NCBI RefSeq assembly: GCF_900112525.1
Contig: NZ_FOMD01000003.1
Location: 186,001-250,000 of the forward strand
Direction of reading: 5' to 3'
DNA: 64,000 bases
Source: Klenkia taihuensis
GTDB taxonomy: Bacteria > Actinomycetota > Actinomycetes > Mycobacteriales > Geodermatophilaceae
The translations under genes were made by a program, and so were the position numbers. Below, piece after piece: positions 8,550-10,461 of this stretch (the first letter of the stretch is position 1; every line of letters starts with the position of its first letter). A model generated the notes under the pieces. That model was not told the origin of the DNA. It made no database searches and saw nothing but the letters and a program-made list of their open reading frames with translations.

Positions 8550-9116
8550 TCAGTCCAGCAGGTAGTGGCGCAGCGCGGGGCCCAGCCAGGCCTGGGCCTG
8601 GTCGCGGGTCATGTCGACCAGGGGCGGCAGCCGCAGCACGTAGCGGCCCAGCGCGAAGCCCAGCACCGTCGCGCCCACCAGGGCGGCGCGCTCGGGGGCG
8701 CGGTCGTCGGTGACCGCGGCCAGGGCGGGCGCGACCTGGGCGGCGAAGACCGTGCGCATCGCCTCGGCCGCCACCTCGCTGGTGGCGGCCGCGCGCAGCA
8801 GGGCGAGGAACGTGCCGTCGTCCTCCCACACCGCGAAGAACCGGTCCACCAGCACCCGGGACAGGTCACCGGCCCGGACACCGGTCAGGTCGGGGAGCCG
8901 CAGGTCGAGGTCGGCCGCCCGGGTGAACAACCCCTCCTTGCTGCCGAAGTACCGGATGACCAGCGCGGCGTCGACGCCGACGTCGCCGGCCACCGCCCGG
9001 ATCGTCGTCCGCTCGTAGCCGTCGGCGGCGAACCGGCGACGCGCGGCGGCGAGCAGGTCGTCGCGGGTCGCGTCGGCGTCCCGCGCCCGAGCAGGTATGT
9101 CATCGCTCGTGGACAC
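8550..9116 (-). CDS. TetR-family repressor
   Basis: A 188-aa TetR regulator. The N-terminal helix-turn-helix spans about residues 17-63 (DDLLAAARRRFAADGYERTT, IRAVAGDVGVDAALVIRYFG). An all-helical ligand domain follows and ends GRYVLRLPPL. It starts with GTG at 9116. A TACCCT -10 (9124-9129) lies 7 nt upstream, so the message is probably leaderless. It is divergent from an FAD monooxygenase, and three matching 18-bp palindromes occupy the gap and the start of its own gene. It likely represses both genes until an aromatic or xenobiotic substrate binds. Confidence 0.9.
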   Translation of the reverse strand: MSTSDDIPARARDADATRDDLLAAARRRFAADGYERTTIRAVAGDVGVDAALVIRYFGSKEGLFTRAADLDLRLPDLTGVRAGDLSRVLVDRFFAVWEDDGTFLALLRAAATSEVAAEAMRTVFAAQVAPALAAVTDDRAPERAALVGATVLGFALGRYVLRLPPLVDMTRDQAQAWLGPALRHYLLD

Positions 9117-9181
9117 GACCAGCAGGGTATGTCATCTGGTGTTGACAGCAGAGCTACGGTGCATGTCATCGAGCGATGACA
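9098..9181. promoter_or_regulatory. Three tandem 18-bp TetR-type operators with divergent promoters
   Basis: Three sites share the form tgtcat..NN..tgaca or close: 9098-9115 tgtcatcgctcgtggaca, 9130-9147 tgtcatctggtgttgaca, 9164-9181 tgtcatcgagcgatgaca. The third is a perfect palindrome with a 2-bp centre; the others are imperfect. Centres are 32 and 34 bp apart, near three helical turns. Site 2 carries a TTGACA -35 (9142-9147) for the rightward gene, with tgtcat (9164-9169) in site 3 as a possible -10. Site 2 also lies upstream of the tetR -10, and site 1 covers the tetR start. This predicts control of both genes. Confidence 0.75.
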
Positions 9182-9192
9182 GGAGGCGGTCC

Positions 9193-10461
9193 GTGGACGA
9201 CGTCCTGGTGGTGGGAGCCGGGCCGACCGGCTGCACGGTCGCCGCGGAGGTCGCCCGCGCCGGCGGCCGGGTCACCGTGCTCGACCGGCACGAGGCCCCC
9301 AGCCCGCTGTCCCGCGCCTTCGGCGTGCACGCCCGCACCCTCGAGCAGCTCGACAGCCGCGGGCTGGCCGACGAGCTGGTCGCCACCGGCACCCCGGTCG
9401 ACCACCTGCGGCTGGTCGGCCGGGCCGGCATCGACCTCTCGCGCCTGCCGACCCGCTTCCCGTTCGTGCTCATGACCCCGCAGGTGCACGTCGACCGGCT
9501 GCTGGAGCGGCACGCCCGCGACTGCGGCGCCCGGGTCGAGCGCGCCGTCCGGGTCACCGGTCTGACCCAGGACGACGACGGCGTCACCGTCACCGCCGGC
9601 GACCGCCGCTGGCGGGCCCGGTACGTGGTCGGCGCGGACGGCGTGCACAGCACCGTGCGGCAGCTGGCCGGGGTCCGGTTCCCCGGCCGGGCGGTGCTCA
9701 GCTCGGTGGTGCTGGCCGACGTCCGGCTGGATCTGGCACCGGACGACCTGCGGGTGGACGTCGACGAGCACGGCTTCGGGTTCCTGGCCCCGTTCGGCGA
9801 CGGCTGGTTCCGCCTCATCGGCTGGGACCGGCGCCGCCAGGTCGGCACCGACGTCCCGGTGGAGGACGGCGAGGTGGCCGGCCTGCTGGACCGGGTGTTC
9901 GGGCTGGCGCCCGGGCCGACCCGGTGGACCTCGCGGTTCTCCTGCGACGAGCGGCAGGCCCCGGCCTACCGCGCCGGCCGGGTGCTCCTGGCCGGGGACG
10001 CCGCGCACGTGCACTCCCCGGCCGGCGGGCAGGGCATGAACACCGGCATCCAGGACGCGTTCAACCTGGGCTGGCGGCTGGCCACCGGCGACCTGGACGG
10101 CTACGAGCGCGAGCGGCACCCGGTCGGCCGCACCGTGCTGCGGTCCAGCGGCGCCACCATCCGGCTGATGACCCTCGGCGGCACCCGCGGGCGGCTGGCC
10201 CGGGCGGTCGCGCTGCGCGGCCTGCTCCGGCTCCCGCCGGTCGCGCACGGCGGCGCCGGGACGTTCTCCGGCATCGCGATCCGCTACCCGGGCCCCGGCC
10301 CGGTCGGCACCCGCGCGGCCGCCGTCCCGCTGCACGGCCCGCGCCTGGCCGAGCGGCAGCGGTCGGCCGGGTTCGTCCGGGTCCCGGCCGCCGACCGGGT
10401 GGACGGCGGCCTCGGCCTGCTGGTCCGGCCCGACGGCTACGTGGCCGAGGTCAGCCCGTGA
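9193..10461 (+). CDS. FAD-dependent monooxygenase (PheA/TfdB-like, aromatic hydroxylase)
   Basis: A 422-aa class A flavin monooxygenase. It has an FAD GxGxxG motif at the very N-terminus (VVGAGPTGCTVAAEVARAG), a DG motif (VGADGVHSTVRQLAG), and the GDAAHVHSPAGGQGMNTGIQ FAD/ribityl motif near residue 275. It is shorter than phenol hydroxylases and lacks most of the C-terminal thioredoxin-like domain. The GTG at 9193 was chosen because aggagg (9181-9186) sits 6 nt upstream. The adjacent TetR repressor suggests induction by its substrate. Rifampicin monooxygenases are relatives, but nothing here fixes the substrate. Confidence 0.87.
   Translation: MDDVLVVGAGPTGCTVAAEVARAGGRVTVLDRHEAPSPLSRAFGVHARTLEQLDSRGLADELVATGTPVDHLRLVGRAGIDLSRLPTRFPFVLMTPQVHVDRLLERHARDCGARVERAVRVTGLTQDDDGVTVTAGDRRWRARYVVGADGVHSTVRQLAGVRFPGRAVLSSVVLADVRLDLAPDDLRVDVDEHGFGFLAPFGDGWFRLIGWDRRRQVGTDVPVEDGEVAGLLDRVFGLAPGPTRWTSRFSCDERQAPAYRAGRVLLAGDAAHVHSPAGGQGMNTGIQDAFNLGWRLATGDLDGYERERHPVGRTVLRSSGATIRLMTLGGTRGRLARAVALRGLLRLPPVAHGGAGTFSGIAIRYPGPGPVGTRAAAVPLHGPRLAERQRSAGFVRVPAADRVDGGLGLLVRPDGYVAEVSP

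Follow-up and report, generated by a model that had tools for sequence, protein, structure and literature searches.

The tetR gene and the monooxygenase gene that diverges from it in the window (the whole 64,000-nucleotide stretch of Klenkia taihuensis DNA analyzed here) are highly likely to form a self-regulated repressor switch, in which a TetR protein controls its own enzyme gene through three 18-bp operators. The three sites, here designated S1, S2 and S3, very probably serve the adjacent TetR as operators, given their conservation with the gene pair, the way in which half-site class tracks recognition-helix class among relatives, and a codon constraint within S1. In the proposed mechanism, one TetR dimer would occupy each operator; S2, between the -10 elements of both promoters, would serve both, S3 would cover the monooxygenase start region, and S1, at the very start of an apparently leaderless tetR transcript, would block tetR. 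Both genes would be off or low without ligand. Release of TetR by a small molecule, probably one that the enzyme uses or makes, would allow monooxygenase and repressor to be produced together. Cooperativity within the three-site switch is possible. The arrangement in the window is ordinary in kind; what is particular to its genus is a third operator within the repressor gene. The features referred to throughout are as follows.

8550..9116, minus strand: tetR, TetR-family repressor with TetR_N and TetR_C_16 domains, GTG start at 9116, 188 aa (open reading frame and Pfam)
9098..9115: predicted operator S1, TGTCATCGCTCGTGGACA, in tetR codons 1-7; in 6/9 genus genomes; GAT codon constraint
9124..9129, minus strand: likely tetR -10, TACCCT, 7 nt before the GTG; predicted leaderless transcript
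9130..9147: predicted operator S2, TGTCATCTGGTGTTGACA; counterpart in 9/9 genus genomes
9142..9147, plus strand: TTGACA, right arm of S2; predicted -35 in relatives whose core spacing is 40-48 bp, but here too near the -10 by one turn
9155..9160, plus strand: likely monooxygenase -10, TACGGT, 7 nt after TTGACA; identified from TANNNT spacing in relatives
9164..9181: predicted operator S3, TGTCATCGAGCGATGACA, 8/9 symmetric; counterpart in 9/9 genus genomes; over the expected monooxygenase transcription start
9181..9186, plus strand: Shine-Dalgarno AGGAGG for the monooxygenase, read from the sequence
9193..10461, plus strand: class A FAD monooxygenase, FAD_binding_3, 422 aa (open reading frame and Pfam)

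The gene pair and its three predicted operators

The repressor was assigned to the TetR family by matches to PF00440 (47.3 bits; cut-off 24) and PF17920 (94.5 bits; cut-off 26.2), and its start was set from the -10-like box that precedes it by 7 nt and from an alignment of 8 orthologues in the genus; 76 bp lie between the start codons of the two genes. The divergent enzyme matches PF01494 (FAD_binding_3) at 243.3 bits against a cut-off of 22, and we take this domain as a marker of class A monooxygenases. Its nearest solved relative is rifampin monooxygenase 5kow (E 1.6e-68; 476 aa, versus 422 aa here). Identity as a Rox/RIFMO enzyme was considered and rejected, the score against NF033145, an NCBIfam equivalog, being 275.5 bits with a cut-off of 800; by these matches the enzyme is akin to rifampin monooxygenase yet falls under the curated cut-off. 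The monooxygenase frame is open upstream as far as an ATG at 9097 (window 9097-9193) and contains a second in-frame ATG at 9163, just 5' of S3. A start at 9163 would render S3 coding (MSSSDD...), mirroring the MSTSDD that tetR reads from S1.

Three 18-bp sites had been proposed in this gap by a sequence-only reading and are present, with start-to-start spacings of 32 and 34 bp. The third, described there as a perfect repeat, falls one pair short: S3 is symmetric at 8/9 pairs, with a central A/G unpaired, and S1 and S2 are symmetric at 6/9 each. Palindromicity alone was rejected as a measure of significance, as at least 6 paired positions are found in 2,231/63,983 18-mers of the window; significance therefore depends on the sequence common to the sites. 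The pattern TGTCATN6ATGACA with up to 2 mismatches occurs at 9 places in the 4,316,910-bp genome (4 for the backward control pattern), of which S3 has no mismatch, S2 has one, and S1 and six other places have two, so that S2 and S3 are the only places genome-wide with at most one. With GTCAWCN4GWTGAC, 13 places match with up to 1 mismatch (backward control 2). S2 and S3 are the only exact matches in the 4.3-Mb genome, and S1 and ten others carry one mismatch. The search for further targets of the regulator thus returned no exact GTCAWCN4GWTGAC genome-wide beyond S2 and S3, and the ten other one-mismatch places could include additional weak targets.

Predicted operators across relatives

Relatives of the TetR were collected by a search of 146 genomes, from which the loci of 30 matches were retained, and from named genomes, from which the best 80 of 583 relatives were taken, so that the sample leans to close ones. 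The sample comprises 110 gaps (L005-L114), with L005 being the window and two being exact copies of others. A gap was scored as monooxygenase-linked when tblastn with the window enzyme gave a divergent match within 600 bp of tetR, as was the case for 92/110. The palindromic motif KGYCAACRNNYGTTGRCM was learned from the 110 gaps. With the motif trained on the same gaps as were scored, and with plain base shuffles without retraining as controls, the mean number of sites per gap (n=110) was 3.0 versus 0.002 in shuffled DNA under the most stringent of four thresholds and 3.2 versus 0.06 under the least stringent.

All 92 monooxygenase-linked gaps contain at least two copies of one palindrome, and this comparison of the gap in relatives, which the sequence-only reading had suggested, supports the operators. 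At least three copies are found in 65/92, and one gap has ten. Three sites had been thought more elaborate than usual, a view that finds no support in this count or in a precedent in S. coelicolor footprinted in 2012 (PMC3511530). At least one site with a score of 7 or more was found in 106/110 gaps, across many genera. The 18 gaps without a linked monooxygenase contain no site (4 gaps: L036, L044, L046 and L049), one site (7), two (3) or three (4); the four siteless loci indicate that such sites are not obligatory for this TetR.

At L025, L055, L061, L076, L101 and L111, about 490-515 bp separate the starts of monooxygenase and tetR, a distance at which another gene may intervene, and at L025 an open frame is visible between the two. 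Among loci of the VMH class (see below), a small gene probably separates the operators from the enzyme gene at L025, L055, L061, L076 and L111 (about 490-510 bp). L015, L034 and L096 hold TetR relatives with two or three operators that adjoin other genes and have no adjoining monooxygenase match. In the genus of the window, member G007 (L123) gave no monooxygenase match at E <= 1e-60, and the place of the enzyme gene is taken by a co-oriented short-chain dehydrogenase, identified by eye from its sequence (L123, 2865-4580). This one genome retains all three sites together with the tetR -10 and no longer has the monooxygenase -10.

Three recognition-helix classes were defined among the TetR relatives, namely VMR (70 loci), VMH (7) and ALVxR (33, window included). 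Half-sites are mostly G[CT]CAAC in VMR, mostly TTCAAC in VMH, and GTCATC, GTCAAC or GTCACC in ALVxR. Counted by position, VMH half-sites (helix DPALVMHY) have TT at positions 2-3 in 18/28; VMR half-sites (DP[AS]MVMRY) have GC or GT there in 490/520 and AAC at positions 5-7 in 431; and ALVxR half-sites (D[AP]ALVIRY, with the window) have GT in 121/124 and ATC, AAC or ACC in 113. The classes are near-clades, with 4 changes for 3 classes on a quick tree built without the helix columns (47/105 inner branches open), and the agreement of helix with half-site is clade-wise.

Operator number and arrangement also differ by class. ALVxR monooxygenase-linked gaps have two sites in 17/22 and three in 5/22, and these five are confined to the genus of the window, of which G007 is a sixth member with three sites and no monooxygenase. 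In the VMR class, neighboring sites stand exactly 14 bp apart in 61/63 monooxygenase-linked gaps (two of the 63 being duplicates) and in 64/70 loci overall, a step at which adjacent 18-bp palindromes have four bases in common. The step occurs in 0/33 ALVxR loci, and the window, at 32 and 34 bp, is not such an array. A 14-bp step turns the helix by about 120 degrees, and three steps make 42 bp, or four turns. When helix class was compared with 14-bp stepping on the tree, 2-3 independent contrasts were available and the association was not significant; since the classes are near-clades, helix and array type are statistically inseparable.

Monooxygenase-linked gaps range from 2 to 10 sites, with several outer sites scoring well below the inner ones. 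The gap of S. echinatus (L082) holds ten sites grouped as 3 + 3 + 3 + 1; that of Streptomyces sp. Act143 (L114) holds eight, with a single run of six; and that of S. bungoensis (L090) holds seven, including a run of four. Across Streptomyces loci L114, L082, L090, L092 and L097, six to ten operators per gap form overlapping runs of three to six at the 14-bp step. Among the open-licence papers listed, judged by titles and the starts of abstracts and with the longest result lists taken in part, neither 14-bp-step arrays nor one-turn spacing modes were described. PMC5895659 contributed nothing further, and two candidate papers were set aside: in the portions where motif letters occur, PMC11596240 (primers only) and PMC6016246 (Rv0078; probe and primer) are not about the TetR/monooxygenase family of the window.

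Promoter geometry, helical phase and site 1

In 105/110 loci an in-frame tetR start is preceded at 6-7 nt by a TANNNT box, versus 7.9 expected from shuffled upstream DNA with equal freedom in the choice of start. When the farthest upstream ATG or GTG was taken as the start, the box stood at 6-7 nt in 63/109, with 8 boxes over all other gaps from 0 to 24. The tetR transcript therefore looks leaderless. The sites had been proposed to overlap the tetR start and its -10 region. The first part stands, S1 covering two bases of the GTG (9116-9114) together with codons 2-7; the likely tetR -10 (9129-9124) lies uncovered between S1 and S2.

On the enzyme side, the TTGACA of the monooxygenase promoter had also been placed under a site, and the hexamer is indeed inside S2 (9142-9147), but as a -35 element it has a 7-nt spacer and so is unable to pair in the usual way with the conserved -10. 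A strict sigma-70 consensus scan of 9050-9260 found no promoter. In the core operator on the tetR side, TTGAC occupies positions 13-17 in 89/89 distinct gaps that have a core pair (a single other gap is without the pair). At a core distance of 40-48 bp (75 gaps), TANNNT follows TTGACA by 16-19 nt in 67, an arrangement that reads as an ordinary promoter. At 32-34 bp (12 gaps, window included), TANNNT stands at 7-8 nt in 11 and at 16-19 nt in none. Two gaps have core distances of 51 and 53 bp. Three separately supported clades contain the short form: the genus of the window, L026/L031 and L016/L020/L022. Within the genus of the window, L011 has a core distance of 44 bp. From these spacings, the interval from -35 to -10 seems to have shrunk by about one helical turn without loss of either operator or of the -10, which supports a phase constraint between the operators.

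Placement of all three sites on one helical face, as had been suggested, applies to S1 and S2 (32 bp, 3.05 turns at 10.5 bp/turn) and fails for S2 and S3 (34 bp, 3.24 turns, about 86 degrees off); the outer pair is 66 bp or 6.29 turns apart. A reading in which the three sites bind cooperatively to give a sharp switch is one we entertain while leaning against it. Core-operator distances in monooxygenase-linked gaps fall at 32-34, 40-48 or 51-53 bp with none between, in modes about one turn apart that are compatible with cooperativity. The recurrence of the short mode in three separately supported clades also speaks for it, and EthR is reported to form a cooperative octamer on its operator (from a title cited in PMC4482099). 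Besides the S2-S3 phase, however, the 40-48 bp mode spans most of a turn and is also constrained by promoter geometry, and a circular statistic, in a run that, like one list of the core distances, used S1-S2 (32) instead of S2-S3 (34) for five genus loci, gave R 0.61-0.64 for periods of 10-12 and did not single out 10.5 bp.

A broader view, which we advance tentatively and hold no more strongly than cooperativity, is that this TetR/monooxygenase family coats its divergent promoter with a helical operator lattice. One clade would use 14-bp dimer steps on overlapping palindromes, core distances would lie in modes about one turn apart, and the lineage of the window and at least two others would have lost about one turn, keeping operator phase at the cost of a normal -35. 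The genus of the window would then have added a third operator within the first few codons of a repressor gene transcribed without a leader.

That third operator, S1, is found in 6/9 genus genomes, each time 32 bp from S2, and is letter-identical in 5. It could be a remnant or a coincidence of the tetR coding start, leaving S2 and S3 as the sole operators, as might be thought from its being the poorest match of the three (one mismatch in GTCAWCN4GWTGAC), from its absence in 3/9 genus genomes (L011-L013) and in the remaining monooxygenase-linked ALVxR gaps, and from two sites being the rule in that class. We regard this as improbable in view of the constant spacing, the letter identity in 5/6 bearers and the use of codons. 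Codon 5 of tetR is GAT in 6/6 S1-bearing genomes, whereas from codon 7 to the end the Asp codons of the same six tetR genes are GAC 98 times and GAT once. Selection on the DNA is the best explanation for a rare GAT held at codon 5 in 6/6, and S1 thus appears constrained as DNA; the six bearers are close relatives, and so this counts as one event retained, not six. The S1-less genomes L011-L013 are also without the N-terminal extension of tetR and are nested in the genus clade. The string AGCAGG(G)TATGTCATC is repeated at window 9090-9104 and 9121-9136, as if S1 had been born by duplication of the tetR-side half of S2 plus flank. That the palindromes serve another regulator and the neighboring TetR acts elsewhere is most improbable, as half-sites track the recognition helix of TetR and 106/110 gaps adjoining a TetR, from many genera, have a site at score >=7.

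Known systems and the wider family

With the three sites read as operators of the adjacent TetR, the closest layout is that of SCO7222 of S. coelicolor, which is described as binding three copies of TGGAACGNCGTTCCA before the divergent monooxygenase gene SCO7223, with three complexes and 72-fold repression (PMC3511530). Both are divergent TetR/monooxygenase pairs with a gap under 200 bp and three palindromic operator copies, and by this precedent three operators at such a pair are of a known kind. Unlike the window, SCO7222/SCO7223 has a 146-bp gap (76 bp here) and a 15-bp operator, TGGAACGNCGTTCCA, in place of the 18-bp GTCATCG/CAACA type, which has TGTCAT-type sites in the window (PMC3511530). 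EthR/EthA of mycobacteria is similar in pairing a TetR repressor with a flavoprotein monooxygenase and a multi-copy operator (PMC4482099) in a 75-bp gap (PMC3511530); the EthR motifs are characterized as multi-copy, of larger size and unlike classical palindromes (PMC4482099). The window TetR has 19 PDB matches at E <= 0.001, and no chain in that set is named EthR. EthA belongs to the Baeyer-Villiger type, not to class A.

MabTetRx/MabTetX of Mycobacterium abscessus likewise consists of an autoregulated, ligand-released TetR repressor of an antibiotic-modifying flavin monooxygenase, but it is reported as an operon with a 35-bp tetO, whereas the genes of the window diverge and have three separate sites (PMC6143652). 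DarR (PMC10636190) and Rv0078 (PMC6016246) are described as binding as two dimers, with overlapping palindromes for DarR; two dimers on such a stretch are what the 14-bp-step arrays of the relatives would need. Their operators are given as single units of 20-21 bp, in contrast to the non-overlapping sites of the window.

The greater interest of the window is as an entry to a family of regularly spaced operator arrays. The family offers a natural series, graded in operator number (from 2 to 10) and with spacing modes that differ by about one turn, in which operator number, overlap and helical phase can be tested against the sharpness of a one-component repressor switch. Short-core loci permit a test of how a promoter with TTGACA and -10 only 7 nt apart works. 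As the enzymes are akin to antibiotic-inactivating monooxygenases, the operators also provide ready reporters for an inducer search. The gene pair is also found outside the actinobacteria, in the myxobacterium Hyalangium versicolor (L102), with four operators at steps of 14, 43 and 14 bp, suggesting horizontal transfer.
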